From a virus, in the IMG/VR virus record IMGVR_UViG_3300047548_000434, positions 1 to 23,399 of that record: 23,399 nucleotides of DNA; one strand, 5' to 3'. How positions within the stretch are numbered: position 1 is the first letter of the stretch; each line of letters opens with the position of its first letter. This document shows positions 17,507 through 23,399 of the stretch, one piece after another. The translations under genes and the position numbers were made by a program. The notes beneath the pieces were generated by a model that saw only the letters and a list, made by a program, of their open reading frames with translations, was not told the DNA's origin and made no database searches.

Positions 17507-18384
17507 CGAAGAGAAGACTAATGGAGATGGCAGGATTGGCCATCAATGAGAGTGCAATTCAATCTGCCTATCAGTTTGAAAAAACATGGGAAAAGGCTTA
17601 CAATAATCTAAAACCTTATAGGTTCACTTATATATCCGATATACAAACCGTAGTACTAAATCTTTTAGGAAAGTTTTCAGCAGCTAGTATCTCAAAAATT
17701 CAACAAAAAGTTAGCAGTGGAAAGGAGTTGGTACCATTAGTGTGTAAAAGCCTTTTTGGTGATGGGTCGGTTGAAATTCCTAAAAGCGATCTTCTTAATA
17801 AAGAATCCGCAAAAAGCCCATCGATGATCCTTACTGTGACAGACTACCAATGGGGGGGCTTTTTGGAAACAGCGTATCGACAGTTTCGTGAAGCATTAGA
17901 GTCGGGTGATGTTAAATCACTAAAGCAGTACCCATCTGCAAGTAAGCTATTTACTAAAGTAGGTAGTGAAGGAGAGGAAGAGCTTGCTAATACGTTTAGA
18001 GAAGTGTTCGTGGCAGCTGTAGATATCTTTAATACAAGTTTTCCGGAATACGTTAAGAATGAAGCAAAGAAAATGAATTTTCCAAAAAAACCTGAGGAAA
18101 AGTTCAAACCTTCATACAATCCTAACAACGCTACTGCAAAGAAGGCTCTGGAGGCTTTCAAAAAAGATATAAGCTTGAAGCAAGACTTTGAGCAGTGGCT
18201 TGTCGATGAACTAGAGGGAGGTGACTACGGTGACAGAGAGGATCTAGTCAATGACTTTGGTCCTAAATTAGATCCTGACGATCTCGATATGGATGACATA
18301 GTGTATAACATCATAAACAAAAAGAAATACCAAAATAGTCTTGGTGAATTTTTTTCAGAATTTGAAGCTACAAATGGCAAATAA
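17497..18384 (+). CDS. Probable virion protein of unknown function, 295 aa
   Basis: No family recognised. It begins MQLTKRRLMEMAGLAINESA, a Lys/Arg-rich helix ending in Asn-Glu-Ser that resembles the N-termini of structural proteins of T4-like marine phages. The middle is mixed helix with SPSMILTVTDYQWGGFLETA, and the C-terminal third is strongly acidic (DYGDREDLVNDFGPKLDPDD, then DLDMDDIVYNI). It overlaps its upstream neighbour (start ATG 17497) and its downstream neighbour (11 nt at 18374-18384), so the three genes are one translational unit. I infer a virion or internal protein role. Confidence 0.65.
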   Translation: MQLTKRRLMEMAGLAINESAIQSAYQFEKTWEKAYNNLKPYRFTYISDIQTVVLNLLGKFSAASISKIQQKVSSGKELVPLVCKSLFGDGSVEIPKSDLLNKESAKSPSMILTVTDYQWGGFLETAYRQFREALESGDVKSLKQYPSASKLFTKVGSEGEEELANTFREVFVAAVDIFNTSFPEYVKNEAKKMNFPKKPEEKFKPSYNPNNATAKKALEAFKKDISLKQDFEQWLVDELEGGDYGDREDLVNDFGPKLDPDDLDMDDIVYNIINKKKYQNSLGEFFSEFEATNGK

Positions 18385-19648
18385 GATCAATTGGGACGAC
18401 ATATTAGTTGAGTGGTCATATAGGTTGCCAAAGGGCTATCCTACAATGAAGGATGGTCAATTTGTGAACAAGAAAGAGCTTGCAATACTTCAGGAGATTT
18501 TAGCTGAATACGGACTTGAAGAATTACCAACAAGCAAGACTCCAGATTCGCCTATACTTGAAAAGGAAGAGGATGTAACAATTACGGCAACAGACTTGGT
18601 GAAGCTTCTGAATAATCCTGATTCAAACTTTTCTCAAAAAACACTTGACCGTGTAGCTTCCCTACTAAAGAGACAAGGTGACTACGAGAAGATTATAGAG
18701 CAGAAGGTCGCGGAGTTTTTAGGACCAGATGCAAAGCATGTGGATAAGATGTATGCAGGTGAAACAGACCAGATGAAGCTAGCTGCGTATTTGTCAGATC
18801 GTTCAATTTCTTATACAGAGTTTCTCAACAAGGTAGCTAGCATAAAAGGAGTGTTTCAACCAGCCACTGGTTTATCGGATCAAGCGTTTGATGAGCTAGT
18901 AGTTTACAAATGGCAAGATACACCTGCTCTAGGTATTGTTGAAGTCTTACTTGCAATGCTCTTAAAAGGAGGTTCCCGACCAACTGGAATGGGTGACTTG
19001 GCGGTAGACGGAAAGCCTTTTGAAGTAGGAGGAGTTAATAAAAGACTTAGAGGTCAGAAAGGCTTTGGTACAGCAAAAGGATTTCGCGAAGGTCTACTAA
19101 AAGGGTACACTGCACTTGCAAATGATCTAGGTTTGGGTACGATATTGCTCTCTGGTGGCGCCAAAGAGAAGGAGGGTGTTAAAATTCCAACCGAGGTATC
19201 ACGATATGGTAACTCCCAGACAACTGGATGGCCAACAGTAATAGAAGAAGTCAATAAGCAGTTTTTTGATCTAGGAGCAAGTCCAGATCCCCAAGAACTA
19301 GCTCAAGCTATTGGACGGGCATTTGTTGGCTTGTTCGAAAAAACCAGTATTACTGATTACAATTGGATTGCCAAATATATCAACGAAGATGGATCACTGC
19401 AGCGTGAGGGATTCTACAAGGAGTTGGTAGCATTTAACTTTGATTACTATATGTCTCAAGGAGGCGATGAAGGTGGAGCTGGTGTAGGTCCGGAGCACTT
19501 TGTACTAGCCAATAGAGATAACATATTAATCCTACCTGCTGATGGGTCTAGCTTGATAGGCTTTTATGATAACCTAAAAGTGGTTTTACCATCCTTCACA
19601 GACGGCTCTGGTTTGCAGGGAGTTGTTGTCGGATTGACGTTAAAATAA
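18374..19648 (+). CDS. Phage protein with PD-(D/E)XK-like region, probable virion component, 424 aa
   Basis: The N-terminus (INWDDILVEWSYRLPKGYPT, MKDGQFVNKKELAILQEILA) resembles a domain I recall from T4-like marine phage structural proteins. ATG 18374 was chosen over GTG 18341 because it gives this conserved-looking start and a normal 11-nt overlap. Residues about 200-240 (VEVLLAMLLKGGSRPTGMGD, LAVDGKPFEVGGVNKRLRGQ) have the GD...ExK spacing of PD-(D/E)XK nucleases, but the Lys is Gly (EVGG), so the site may be inactive or use another Lys. The C-terminus (GPEHFVLANRDNILILP) is strand-rich. A terminator closes the gene. Function unknown; nuclease relation is a motif-level guess. Confidence 0.6.
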   Translation: MANKINWDDILVEWSYRLPKGYPTMKDGQFVNKKELAILQEILAEYGLEELPTSKTPDSPILEKEEDVTITATDLVKLLNNPDSNFSQKTLDRVASLLKRQGDYEKIIEQKVAEFLGPDAKHVDKMYAGETDQMKLAAYLSDRSISYTEFLNKVASIKGVFQPATGLSDQAFDELVVYKWQDTPALGIVEVLLAMLLKGGSRPTGMGDLAVDGKPFEVGGVNKRLRGQKGFGTAKGFREGLLKGYTALANDLGLGTILLSGGAKEKEGVKIPTEVSRYGNSQTTGWPTVIEEVNKQFFDLGASPDPQELAQAIGRAFVGLFEKTSITDYNWIAKYINEDGSLQREGFYKELVAFNFDYYMSQGGDEGGAGVGPEHFVLANRDNILILPADGSSLIGFYDNLKVVLPSFTDGSGLQGVVVGLTLK

Positions 19649-19896: not shown

Positions 19897-20353
19897 TTGG
19901 TGGAGACGTCAACGTCCAAAAGCAAAGTTAGATAGAAAGAAAGCAAAGCTAGGTGTTCCATTTATATTACAGCAGATTGAGCACGGAGACTTTGATCATT
20001 CAGATTTCAAGAGACAAGCTGAGCAAGAGTTGGTTTTATGCGAACAAACACTTGCAACCTTTGTAAAGAACTACAAAGGCTCTGCACCTACCTTAGATGA
20101 TCGTTATCTTGAGATAGAGCGAAAGTTTCGTAAAAGATATAACAAGCTTATGGAGGATTACCATAAGGAGGAGGTTGCTACTTTGATGGAACTTAGAGTA
20201 GCTTTAATCAAACACTTCGAAGTAGATGTGTGGGATGAAACTGTACAAGAAGCTTTCAAAAGAGACACAATCGGTGCTAAAGACTTTTATTTTTTGTATA
20301 ATGAATTAACAAACAAATATAATGCAAGTACGAGTAAAGAAGTTACACCCTAA
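19883..20353 (+). CDS. Unknown charged protein, 156 aa
   Basis: A basic N-terminus (MGKFNWWRRQRPKAKLDRKK) is followed by a helical, charged body (QQIEHGDFDHSDFKRQAEQE, ERKFRKRYNKLMEDYHKEEV) and ends ELTNKYNASTSKEVTP. The N-terminal WW/RR stretch could touch nucleic acid or a membrane. No family recognised. Its 3' end overlaps the dUTPase gene by 32 nt, so the two are made from one mRNA. Confidence 0.65.
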   Translation: MGKFNWWRRQRPKAKLDRKKAKLGVPFILQQIEHGDFDHSDFKRQAEQELVLCEQTLATFVKNYKGSAPTLDDRYLEIERKFRKRYNKLMEDYHKEEVATLMELRVALIKHFEVDVWDETVQEAFKRDTIGAKDFYFLYNELTNKYNASTSKEVTP

Positions 20354-20750
20354 CGCAGTAATACCACAATATGCAGTAGAGGGGGATGCTGGGTTGGATT
20401 TAACAGCAATCTCAGCTGAAAAAGATGGTTACGGAAATGTAGTGTATGGTACGGGTCTTTCGATTGAGATTCCGCAAGGATATGTCGGATTAATCTTTCC
20501 TAGATCATCTAACAGCAAGACTGATCTATACTTAACAAACCATGTAGGAGTCATCGATTCAGGTTATAGAGGAGAAATTGTATTTAAGTTTCGTGCAATC
20601 AGTGGATTGTGGGATGCAAGAATCCATCGCACTGGTGATCGAGTAGGTCAATTAATAATAATACCATACCCTCAGATTGAATTAGTAGAGTCGGATGAGT
20701 TGTCAGATTCTCAGAGAGGTGAGGGTGGTTTTGGTTCAACAGGTAAATAA
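20322..20750 (+). CDS. dut: dUTPase (trimeric Dut type), 142 aa
   Basis: Hydrolyses dUTP to dUMP and PPi, keeping uracil out of DNA and feeding dTMP synthesis. All five motifs are present: GDAGLDL (21-27), PRSSNSK (60-66), GVIDSGYRGEI (76-86) with the catalytic Asp79, GDRVGQLIIIPYP (105-117) and the C-terminal lid RGEGGFGSTGK (132-142). The length is normal for the trimeric family (about 140-150 aa). Its ATG is inside the end of the preceding gene, and 11 nt separate it from the QueD-like gene. Confidence 0.95.
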   Translation: MQVRVKKLHPNAVIPQYAVEGDAGLDLTAISAEKDGYGNVVYGTGLSIEIPQGYVGLIFPRSSNSKTDLYLTNHVGVIDSGYRGEIVFKFRAISGLWDARIHRTGDRVGQLIIIPYPQIELVESDELSDSQRGEGGFGSTGK

Positions 20751-20761
20751 ATAAAACAAAT

Positions 20762-21238
20762 ATGGGAAGATACATTTCAACAAAACTTTTCGACAACTAC
20801 TCAGTAGCAATTAGACAATGGAAAGCCTCGCATTCACATTGTGAGTTACTTCATGGGTATGCTTTAAAGTTCAAAGTATGGTTTGCATCAAACGAACCAC
20901 TAGAAGAGAATCAACTAGATGACATGAATTGGATCGTCGACTATGGAGGCTTCAAGGATGCACCAGTGGGTAATGGATTAAAGGCGTGGATGGATCATAT
21001 GTGGGACCACACTTTATTGATTCAGAAGGATGATCCGTATGCAGACATCTTTGAACAGCTAGGACAGATGGGATTAGCCAAAGTACACTTCTTAGAGAAG
21101 ATGGGAGCTGAGTCTTGTGCTAAGTTAGTATTCGATAAGTTTAACGACGTACTATCGAAGACGGATGCAGGACGATGTAAGTGCATTAAAGTGGAGTGTT
21201 TTGAAAACGATAAAAACTCAAGTATCTATGAAGAGTGA
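20762..21238 (+). CDS. queD: QueD-like 6-carboxytetrahydropterin synthase / PTPS family, 158 aa
   Basis: QueD converts dihydroneopterin triphosphate to 6-carboxy-tetrahydropterin on the way to preQ0. Matches to the family: Cys27-x3-His31 (HCELLHGYALKFKVW), WIVDYGGFKD (57-66), a DH pair (WDHTLLI, 81-87) and VECFE near the end. Two of three usual zinc histidines are changed. The position aligning with E. coli QueD His16 is Ile17, and His33 is Tyr33 (HGY for HGH). Nearby His24 and His26 (SHSHC) might replace them. It lies in an operon with dUTPase upstream and QueE downstream, which supports the pathway assignment. Overlaps the next gene by 11 nt. Confidence 0.8.
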   Translation: MGRYISTKLFDNYSVAIRQWKASHSHCELLHGYALKFKVWFASNEPLEENQLDDMNWIVDYGGFKDAPVGNGLKAWMDHMWDHTLLIQKDDPYADIFEQLGQMGLAKVHFLEKMGAESCAKLVFDKFNDVLSKTDAGRCKCIKVECFENDKNSSIYEE

Positions 21239-21446
21239 AAGTAAAGAAGAGGTGTACAAATCGCTCTACGAATACCTAGGAAGGGCAGCAGGGTCTGAGC
21301 TAGGTAAGAAAGTAGCAGCAGCTGCATCAGCGAAGAAAGTTAAACTAACTACTCAAGAGGTTAGTAACCCTAAGTACTCTGGAACAGTAATGATGTACCC
21401 AGTTAGTTTCTTAGATGAATACTTTGAAAACGAATTACCATTCTAA
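21228..21446 (+). CDS. Small conserved-looking protein between queD and queE, 72 aa
   Basis: MKSESKEEVYKSLYEYLGRA, then AGSELGKKVAAAASAKKVKL and a strand part TTQEVSNPKYSGTVMMYPVS followed by FLDEYFENELPF. I recall similar short phage proteins but know no function. ATG 21228 was used instead of the earlier in-frame ATG 21165 because the 21 extra residues overlap queD and look like its shadow. It overlaps queD by 11 nt and queE follows 1 nt later. The position between two que genes suggests, but does not prove, a role in the same pathway. Confidence 0.7.
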   Translation: MKSESKEEVYKSLYEYLGRAAGSELGKKVAAAASAKKVKLTTQEVSNPKYSGTVMMYPVSFLDEYFENELPF

Positions 21447-21447
21447 T

Positions 21448-22224
21448 ATGAAGCCAGGAAGAATAACAGACTACAACAAAGTCTTACCAATTGTTGAATT
21501 ATATAGATGCGTGCAGAGTGAAGGTTCTCGCTTTGGAAGACCTACAATAGCAGTACGCACTACCGGATGTACTCACCGATGTTATTTTGGAGAGGGAGGG
21601 TGGTGTGACTCCTGGTACACGAGTATCCATCCTGAGAAAGGAACATTCACTTTTAACGATATTATTGCTATTTATGATGAGAACCCTCACATTAAAGAAA
21701 TGATGTTAACGGGAGGTTCTCCCACAATGCATCCAGCATTGGTTAACGAGTTGACACATTTTGCAAATGAAAGAGGTATTCTTATTACTATTGAAACTGA
21801 AGGTTCGCATTTTATTGAGACTGATTATCCTATTGGGCTTATCTCTCTTAGCCCTAAGTTTAGCAATAGCGTTCCCGTTGTGGGTGTTGCTACGCCGCAA
21901 GGCTCGATTACGGATGAGAAAATGGTTACGCAACATAACAAATTTCGCTTAAACTACACAGCGATTAACGCAATGATATCCTATCATGCAGATTACCATT
22001 ACAAACCAGTCTGGGACGGAACAGAAGATAATCTTCGAGAAATTGAAGAAGCTCGTTTGTTTTTAGGAATCCCGAAGGAAAAGACGTATATTATGCCAGC
22101 GGGTGATACTCGTGAGGAGCTGATCAAGATGTACCCTATCGTATTTGATATGTGTGCAGAAAGAGGTTACAATATGACAGGAAGAGACCATATAATCGCG
22201 TTCGACCAGAGACGTGGAGTTTGA
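21448..22224 (+). CDS. queE: QueE-like 7-carboxy-7-deazaguanine synthase, radical SAM, 258 aa
   Basis: QueE turns 6-carboxy-tetrahydropterin into 7-carboxy-7-deazaguanine with SAM and a 4Fe-4S cluster. Seen: CVQSEG (21-26, like QueE QGEG), the cluster motif Cys41-x3-Cys45-x7-Cys53 in GCTHRCYFGEGGWCDSWY, MLTGGSPTMHP (86-96, the GGEP-type SAM motif with Ser for Glu), ITIETEGS (113-120), ISLSPKF (132-138) and IMPAGDTREEL. Canonical QueE has Cx3Cx2C, so this one has a five-residue insertion between the last two Cys. The start at ATG 21448 follows the previous stop by one base; the ATG at 21415 lies inside the previous gene. Confidence 0.85.
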   Translation: MKPGRITDYNKVLPIVELYRCVQSEGSRFGRPTIAVRTTGCTHRCYFGEGGWCDSWYTSIHPEKGTFTFNDIIAIYDENPHIKEMMLTGGSPTMHPALVNELTHFANERGILITIETEGSHFIETDYPIGLISLSPKFSNSVPVVGVATPQGSITDEKMVTQHNKFRLNYTAINAMISYHADYHYKPVWDGTEDNLREIEEARLFLGIPKEKTYIMPAGDTREELIKMYPIVFDMCAERGYNMTGRDHIIAFDQRRGV

Positions 22225-22291: not shown

Positions 22292-22981
22292 ATGACCTAC
22301 GTGAGGACAGATAAAATAAACGGAAAGTATAAGTACATACATAAGTTGGAATGCAAGCAATGCAGTGTTTTGTATGAAAGAGTGTCAGGTAACAAATCAC
22401 CGCTCAAGCGAGGATGGTGTTCTGAGAATTGTCGAAAGGATTGGTTTAAGGATCAATGCTGGACAAAGCAGCGATGTGAGAGCTGCAATGAAAAGTTTGA
22501 CATGCCCAACCATCAGCAGTATAGGTTTTGTTCTTACAAATGCTACCACCAGGATATGAAGAACCACCCAGAAAGATACAATCTCTATGAAAAAGCAGCA
22601 AACGCGCAAGCTAACGCTAACACACCAGAGACCATTCAGAAGATGAAAGAAACTAAGTTAGCAAACGGAAACATTATAGATTGGAAAGATGCTACCTGGA
22701 AGCAGTACTGGAAGAAGTGTGATGAGCTGACCCGCAAGATGAGAGCTCAGCTATTGGAGGGATGGGATGGATTAGATTACATAAGTGGTGAGTACATAGA
22801 GAACAATCTCACACTACACTACTCCCACGGAGACTATCCAACACTCGATCACGTAATACCAAGGAGCGAGTGCTACAAGCAAGGTCTAACTCCAGAGCAA
22901 GCTTGCTCAGCTGAAAATCTAAGATGGACTACAAGGAGGAATAATTCTTCAAAGTACAATAGAGTTGCAAATACAAAATAA
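22292..22981 (+). CDS. HNH endonuclease with two zinc-finger-like modules, 229 aa
   Basis: The C-terminal HNH nuclease reads YPTLDHVIPRSECYKQGLTP then ACSAENLRWTTRRNNSSK, with His187, Asn209 and Asn218 as the likely core. Two Cys4 modules are N-terminal: Cys21/24 with Cys43/47 and Cys62/65 with Cys80/84, probably for DNA binding. A short NUMOD-like segment (TPETIQKMKETKLANG, 111-126) lies between. This is the make-up of free-standing phage homing endonucleases, which cut related genomes lacking them. It sits as a separate unit between queE and the dCTP deaminase segment and has its own late-type box, as homing endonucleases in T4 often do. Confidence 0.88.
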   Translation: MTYVRTDKINGKYKYIHKLECKQCSVLYERVSGNKSPLKRGWCSENCRKDWFKDQCWTKQRCESCNEKFDMPNHQQYRFCSYKCYHQDMKNHPERYNLYEKAANAQANANTPETIQKMKETKLANGNIIDWKDATWKQYWKKCDELTRKMRAQLLEGWDGLDYISGEYIENNLTLHYSHGDYPTLDHVIPRSECYKQGLTPEQACSAENLRWTTRRNNSSKYNRVANTK

Positions 22982-22999: not shown

Positions 23000-23167
23000 A
23001 TGCACGAAATGTTACACATCATTGGACTATGTCCAGACAGTTTCACTCATACTAGCTTGATTGAAACGGTAGTTATGAATTACCAAGCAGTTATTGAAAT
23101 TTTAAACACAAACATCAAAGGTTATGTTACTAAACGCAGATGGAGTCGCTCAACTACTTCAAACTAA
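23000..23167 (+). CDS. Small phage protein of unknown function, 55 aa
   Basis: ATG 23000 to TAA 23165-23167 encodes MHEMLHIIGLCPDSFTHTSL, IETVVMNYQAVIEILNTNIK and a basic end. The HxxG(L)CxDS..H pattern recalls small conserved phage proteins of unknown function. It has a promoter-like box at the usual distance and overlaps the next gene by 44 nt in another frame, a large overlap for this genome. That could mean the last 15 codons are not under selection, or that the two are translationally coupled. Confidence 0.55.
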   Translation: MHEMLHIIGLCPDSFTHTSLIETVVMNYQAVIEILNTNIKGYVTKRRWSRSTTSN

Positions 23168-23399
23168 CGACAAAGGAGCAAAAGCACAGGTAGGTTATGA
23201 TTTAACCTTAAAAGCAGTTAAGAAAATCAAAGGTGGAATGGTCTTGAAAGATAAGACCATCGTTGAAGACTATGAAGATGTACCACCAACTCTAACACCA
23301 ACTGGAAAGTACTTATTCCATTTACAACCAGGTTCATACTCGATAACCTTCGATCAGGGATGTAAGCTTCCAGCAGATAAGACTGCATTCATTCGACAT
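23124..23399 (+). CDS. dCTP deaminase-like / dUTPase-fold protein (3' partial)
   Basis: The window holds the first 92 codons, starting MLLNADGVAQLLQTNDKGAK, then QVGYDLTLKAVKKIKGG, PTGKYLFHLQPGSYSITFDQ and CKLPADKTAFIRH, cut by the window edge. GYDLTL, the LxPGSY segment and the beginning RH of an (I)RHRSS-type motif fit the dCTP deaminase/dUTPase superfamily. dCTP deaminase makes dUTP, which the dUTPase at 20322 would convert to dUMP. The catalytic segment lies outside the window, so deaminase rather than dUTPase activity cannot be confirmed. Confidence 0.75.
   Translation, partial: MLLNADGVAQLLQTNDKGAKAQVGYDLTLKAVKKIKGGMVLKDKTIVEDYEDVPPTLTPTGKYLFHLQPGSYSITFDQGCKLPADKTAFIRH

Follow-up and report, generated by a model that had tools for sequence, protein, structure and literature searches.

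Phage DpdA systems such as those of 9g, CAjan, Rosebush and nt-1 combine in one virus homologues of FolE, QueD and QueE with a transglycosylase of the tRNA-guanine transglycosylase (TGT) fold, DpdA (Hutinet et al. 2019, PMC6884629). Known phage 7-deazaguanine systems have been described as synthesis enzymes plus DpdA, a description that leaves unexplained how guanine could be exchanged fast along a replicating genome, before restriction. Here we analyze a whole IMG/VR virus record of 23,399 bases (IMGVR_UViG_3300047548_000434, classed as a linear fragment; hereafter, the window), in which queD and queE flank a gene for a 72-amino-acid (aa) protein, orf72. Its lineage likewise brings together FolE, QueD, QueE and a TGT-fold transglycosylase, but differs from the 9g-type systems in being without queC and in possessing the 72-aa family, of which we met no description in the literature consulted and which is the new part of our finding. 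We propose, with a probability of about 0.5, that this lineage carries a queC-less module for 7-deazaguanine modification of DNA, in which orf72 is an accessory of DpdA tethered through a C-terminal tip like that of the bacterial single-stranded DNA-binding protein (SSB).

Flavobacterium phage immuto (NC_055915), a 160-kb phage, shares its early-gene order with the window and has a queD-69aa-queE arrangement with the same overlaps. It encodes a member of the 72-aa family (gp025), an annotated DpdA (gp206), QueC and QueF, and differs from the window's lineage in being of the QueC type, with its 72-aa-family member near queC. The 69-aa protein in its queD-queE slot (gp215) was considered as a member of the family and proved unrelated. 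In Cellulophaga phage phiST (NC_020842), the pathway genotype is that of the window's relatives: folE, queD, queE, a gene resembling the PTPS family (CGPG_00067), a kinase gene (CGPG_00066), a transglycosylase gene of the class I type defined below (CGPG_00065), and no queC. It differs in its virus type and in that no 72-aa member was found.

Operon layout and genotype classes

The features of the operon are as follows, all on the plus strand.
20322-20750, +, dut (PHROG dUTPase, E = 8e-48)
20762-21238, +, queD-like gene of the 6-carboxytetrahydropterin synthase family, 158 aa (Pfam PTPS, E = 2e-11; PHROG QueD-like, E = 3e-32)
21228-21446, +, orf72, putative 72-aa accessory protein (homologues; AlphaFold2 model)
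21255-21428, +, conserved core of orf72, ..YxSLYEYLGxAAGxxLGxxV..SNPKYxGxVxxYPxxFLDxYF.. (family alignments, secondary structure of the model)
21429-21443, +, C-terminus of orf72 resembling the SSB tip, N-E-L-P-F, the preceding E being the last codon of the marked core
21448-22224, +, queE-like radical-SAM gene of the 7-carboxy-7-deazaguanine synthase family, 258 aa (PHROG QueE-like, E = 3e-48)
23124-23399, +, start of a gene with the dCTP-deaminase/dUTPase fold, cut by the window end (homologue at locus L038, 10903-11385)

An earlier note on this DNA, made from the sequence alone, had described dut, queD, the 72-aa open reading frame (ORF) and queE as a compact operon. Our profile searches agree on the four ORFs and on their spacing, with orf72 starting 11 nucleotides (nt) inside queD and queE starting 1 nt past the orf72 stop. 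Longer starts exist for orf72 (21165) and queE (21415), and the family alignments favor the short ones. The Pfam Radical_SAM match of queE (E = 5e-6) is slightly short of the Pfam cut-off. The conserved unit is queD-72aa-queE; dut is not part of it, being elsewhere or not found near queD and queE in the closest relatives, so that the tie to DNA precursors that the note had seen in dUTPase appears incidental.

We fetched 80 IMG/VR loci by QueE alone and mapped them with profiles built in this analysis, which revealed three genotypes. Class I is the window's own clade (L038 and L039, with QueD 98% identical to that of the window, and L001, L021, L066, L071 and L078); its gene order is queD-orf72-queE, a dCTP-deaminase-like gene, the PTPS-like gene, a kinase, folE and a 264-aa transglycosylase. 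In class II, folE-queD-orf72-queE is followed 5-8.5 kb downstream by a 416-432-aa TGT-like protein. Class III has dpdA-orf72-queC, with queD-queE-folE in the same place or up to 30 kb off. Ten more loci, each holding enough neighborhood, were fetched by the class I transglycosylase (DpdA-I) alone. The order queD-orf72-queE-PTPS-like-folE-dpdA is found in 9 of 10 DpdA-I loci, L038 and L039 included; as exceptions, L337 has the PTPS-like gene before queE and L336 is without orf72.

Every near relative with enough sequence has a transglycosylase about 3 kb past queE. The right end of the window falls within the dCTP-deaminase-like gene, whose homologue in L038 matches Pfam DCD (E = 9e-11), and folE and dpdA of the window's virus are therefore expected just past that end; we predict that its own genome carries both there, no more than about 3.5 kb away. 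Of the 7-deazaguanine synthesis genes, then, queD and queE are in the window and folE is in its relatives. Since the nearest relatives carry folE and a TGT-fold transglycosylase a few kb after queE, modification of DNA with a 7-deazaguanine base by the window's virus is likely and well supported by genome content, in line with what the earlier note had suggested. The gene set, of which the window holds a part, is one with which large phages of Bacteroidota probably replace guanine in their DNA.

The transglycosylase of the lineage

The class I and class III DpdA proteins gave no match to the Pfam TGT model and matched only unnamed PHROG families; the class III member of immuto carries its depositors' DpdA annotation. 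The AlphaFold2 model of class I DpdA has a mean pLDDT of 80.5, and its top 50 Protein Data Bank (PDB) matches by Foldseek are all Zymomonas TGT (E = 2e-7 to 6e-6; TM 0.61-0.66). The motifs D-N and S-x-D-S/T-x-x-P are conserved, and by our own reading would correspond to the aspartates that serve TGT as general acid and nucleophile. The class II protein has a weak TGT profile match but carries DSGGFQ; compared with 9g DpdA, it shares the DSG motif and no further sequence match. Relatives of class III DpdA occur at 35% identity in Campylobacter phages, which were cited by Hutinet et al. as highly modified with dADG (PMC6884629).

A PTPS-like gene in place of queC

The earlier note had taken QueD and QueE to indicate synthesis toward preQ0, with queC, folE and an inserting enzyme perhaps elsewhere in the genome or supplied by the host. 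Looking for these three genes in the relatives, we found folE and dpdA after queE and no queC in the window's clade, where the PTPS-like gene stands instead; synthesis of preQ0 is thus doubtful. There is no queC match in the window, nor was queC found in class II contigs of 160 kb and 169 kb or in a 127-kb class I contig, the window and the class I contigs being fragments. The 169-kb contig has overlapping ends (929 nt, 881 identical) and is therefore probably complete. Of the QueE-centered loci, 18 have queC, 42 have the PTPS-like gene and none has both; over all fetched loci, the PTPS-like gene is present in 63, queC being absent from every one of them. Cultured phages infecting several unrelated hosts also have this gene, alongside folE, queD, queE and/or a gene resembling that of a transglycosylase. 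In 9 of 10 tested cultured-phage genomes with the PTPS-like gene, phiST included, queC is missing, and the tenth (D479) has a partial match. The link to PTPS comes from the motifs H..P, HRH, SCE and ED..NGA and from a weak profile match (hhalign probability 65%).

Most likely, then, the PTPS-like gene takes the place of queC in the window's clade. As the two genes are mutually exclusive, the lineage probably makes 7-carboxy- or 7-deazaguanine, unless it draws on a host QueC. Cui et al. reportedly studied Cellulophaga phages (in NAR, 2023), described dCDG and dDG in phages and predicted a decarboxylase of 7-carboxy-7-deazaguanine (CDG), DpdL. The PTPS-like gene is presumably a candidate for DpdL, an assumption of ours that serves as a lead. 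Equally as a lead, a role of its product as CDG decarboxylase is suggested by context, as the gene excludes queC and adjoins that of the transglycosylase. The alternation of queC and the PTPS-like gene may allow the type of base (preQ0-derived, or else CDG or 7-deazaguanine) to be predicted from metagenomic contigs.

We considered whether the pathway might instead serve tRNA queuosine (Q), or might supply preQ0 through host QueC, rather than CDG or 7-deazaguanine as a base for DNA. The phage lineage is without QueC and most bacteria have one, as seen in control genomes, and phages without DpdA have been suggested to boost tRNA Q (PMC6884629). However, a DpdA of the TGT fold is part of this operon in the nearest relatives, and the substitution of the PTPS-like gene for queC extends to unrelated phages, which makes this account decidedly unlikely.

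Two observations concern the surroundings and architecture of the PTPS-like gene. A small P-loop kinase (Pfam AAA_18), common to the window's clade and phiST, adjoins it, and cultured phage MA9V-3 has a similar GEICSGKTTF protein in the same slot (L038 11678-12199; L108 16382-16882; L342 9333-9803). In Vibrio phage Bakedbeans (L344 4221-5372), the PTPS-like domain is C-terminal in a larger protein, the N-terminal part of which has a TGT-like nucleophile motif, SADTSSP.

The 72-aa family accompanies the modification module

More than 150 distinct homologues with invariant residues in related viruses indicate that orf72 is a real gene belonging to a phage family. Collection scans, for which an 11-row subset of the 62-row family alignment was used, picked up 283 stretches of viral contigs that encode relatives; across 84,980 cellular genomes they yielded a single relative, on a contig of a metagenome-assembled genome and itself next to dpdA. 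Searches of orf72 against Pfam, PHROG, NCBIfam and PDB sequence families returned no significant match, and a weak resemblance to ribosomal L18 (E = 0.6) was judged to be chance.

The earlier note had singled out the 72-aa protein as a partner of the pathway and raised the question of whether it always accompanies queE. The partner is real, but strict companionship with queE fails: the family goes with the modification module, is found next to dpdA in phages of the QueC type, and is missing from phiST and MA9V-3. Among the QueE-centered loci, 56 extend more than 6 kb upstream and 55 of these carry orf72; its position depends on the genotype, being between queD and queE where there is no queC and next to dpdA where queC is present. 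Indeed, in most of the QueC-type loci that have it, orf72 directly follows dpdA. In a set of 79 loci of class III type (DpdA-III), fetched with a DpdA-orf72 fusion as query, orf72 lies within 1.2 kb of dpdA in 29, often 3 nt downstream or with an overlap of the dpdA end. The fusion itself is a single 359-aa ORF (DpdA 1-264, orf72 259-359) found in L197, L198 and L199. Moreover, where queD and queE are 30 kb away (G001 and G002), orf72 remains with dpdA and queC. From the fusion, the adjacency and this persistence beside dpdA when the synthesis genes are elsewhere, we infer a link between orf72 and DpdA; the family, real and widespread among phages, most likely acts with DpdA.

This arrangement also bears on the possibility that orf72 serves the enzymes of base synthesis (QueD, QueE or, in phages of the QueC type, QueC) as an assembly or channeling factor, its closeness to dpdA being a mere matter of operon order. 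That orf72 is placed between queD and queE in class II as well as in the window's clade, overlapping queD and 1 nt from queE, would fit such a role, as would the fact that queC usually follows orf72 in QueC-type phages. We nevertheless consider it unlikely: in G001 and G002 orf72 did not move with queD and queE, its fusion partner is DpdA and not QueC or QueE, and the SSB-like tip described below would make no obvious sense on an enzyme of base synthesis.

The AlphaFold2 model of orf72 (pLDDT 82.5) is a small alpha/beta fold with the predicted order beta-alpha-alpha-beta-beta-alpha. A subunit conferring DNA-binding specificity on DpdA or opening the strands for it, the tip then being secondary, would equally be fused and adjacent to DpdA, and a viral library gave sub-threshold fold likeness to Bro-N, antirepressor and helix-turn-helix proteins. 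Yet orf72 has no significant match to solved DNA-binding folds and the window's protein is not basic (calculated isoelectric point 6.2), and we give this explanation, too, a low probability.

Several single loci depart from the common patterns. L007 has both positional types of orf72 in one locus, L202 carries two copies in tandem, and an outlying member lies away from module genes on a 64-kb contig that also encodes QueE. A 344-aa protein, A0A6J5M071, is 42% identical over the orf72 fold and is a candidate for a second dpdA-orf72 fusion. The 70-aa protein in the queD-queE slot of MA9V-3 is unrelated to the family.

An SSB-like tip at the C-terminus

The window's orf72 ends in E-N-E-L-P-F, and the consensus of the family is D-D-(D/E)-L-P-F. 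Seventy-six distinct members end in LPF, mostly as DDDLPF or DDELPF, with synonymous variation of the codons and constant residues, and the tip must therefore be under selection at the protein level. Among 2,599 other ORFs of at least 60 aa in these genomes, by comparison, only 4 have the LPF ending. Of 54 distinct members next to queD/queE, 46 have the tip; next to dpdA, about one member in three has it. We rejected a role of the DDDLPF codons in translation initiation of queE, because synonymous changes occur in these codons and members encoded at a distance from queE have the tip as well.

The sequence DDDIPF is the conserved hexapeptide with which SSB docks on DnaG and on further proteins of replication and repair (PMC5872125). 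About half of the 72-aa family end in six residues of this kind, as does bacterial SSB (DDDIPF/DDDLPF). The similarity does not extend to the remainder of the protein: there is no OB-fold, no Pfam SSB match and no SSB homology in the family, and the core is a different small fold.

Such a tip might also act as a decoy, filling the SSB-tip pockets of host nucleases or helicases, with the operon position reflecting a shared location of early genes. The resemblance to the SSB hexapeptide (PMC5872125) would suit this purpose, and among the gp32-like SSBs of the phages themselves a tip of this kind is seen in only 1 of 36 distinct cases, the other 35 ending mostly in LFN or FNS. But a decoy would explain neither the constant association with 7-deazaguanine genes and the DpdA fusion nor the members without a tip, and we regard it as very unlikely. 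The single tipped gp32-like SSB, one of the four other LPF proteins, belongs to a class III phage (L145 4940-5767) and ends in DDDLPF.

Returning to the module proposed at the outset, we envisage that FolE, QueD and QueE would convert GTP to CDG. The PTPS-like protein, whose gene adjoins that of the transglycosylase, would replace QueC and most likely release 7-deazaguanine or otherwise prepare CDG. The TGT-fold DpdA would then swap guanine in phage DNA for the modified base, which should protect that DNA against restriction. In this step orf72 may be an accessory subunit, its core binding DpdA; where the D-D-(D/E)-L-P-F tip is carried, it could dock in the pocket with which replication or repair proteins bind the SSB tip, and base exchange would thereby follow DNA synthesis. 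This last part, a replisome-tethering subunit of DpdA that couples exchange to DNA synthesis, we advance tentatively. Because the tip is what points to replication, its binding to SSB-interacting proteins is offered as a motif-based hypothesis. If true, a small dedicated partner would provide the physical link between base exchange and replication.

Unusual features of QueD and QueE

In an alignment with the QueD of E. coli and phage 9g, the window's QueD keeps the catalytic Cys27 and the D-H pair, as well as His31 and a late Glu (E. coli numbering); the Cys27 column is invariant and D-H-T is present. Of the zinc triad His16/His31/His33, however, His31 alone is retained, His16 being replaced by Ile and His33 by Tyr, and HGY stands in place of HGH in 135 of 140 distinct QueD homologues of the virus group. 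The cluster motif of the window's QueE is CX3CX7C, compared with CX3CX2C in E. coli and phage 9g; the three cysteines align, the motif is longer by five residues between the second and third, and most of 138 homologues are alike. The loss of zinc ligands and the longer motif mean that activity of these enzymes cannot be assumed. Both peculiarities occur equally in the QueC and non-QueC classes and thus do not explain the split between them.

Observations weighing against the proposed module

A number of observations argue against the module as we propose it. Neither folE nor dpdA lies inside the 23.4-kb window, and QueD activity is uncertain in the whole virus group, as two of the three canonical zinc histidines are missing there. 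The PTPS-like gene has no Pfam match, and its relation to PTPS is weak. As for orf72, Foldseek returned nothing below E = 0.3 for its model in the PDB, and in the window's own clade the gene adjoins queD/queE and not dpdA. The fusion was seen in three contigs of identical sequence, hence in a single virus and as a single event, and the protein it encodes lacks the LPF tip. Roughly half of the members are likewise tipless, so that the tip is not the whole function and these must use the core or another contact. No orf72 was found in phiST and MA9V-3, nor was any detected nearby in 50 of the 79 DpdA-III loci, some of which are cut short; orf72 is therefore dispensable for modification as such.

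Other genes of the window

Elsewhere the window encodes T4-like baseplate proteins, DNA polymerase, a ssDNA-binding protein, UvsX, an exonuclease, DnaB and ribonucleotide reductase. A 435-aa protein (18341-19648) has no Pfam match above cut-off, and relatives keep it at 28-77% identity. After queE there is an HNH endonuclease-like gene (22292-22981), and HNH-like genes occur at nearly the same spot in L028, L029, L053, L055, L067, L083 and L091 (classes II and III), as if this position were a recurrent insertion site.

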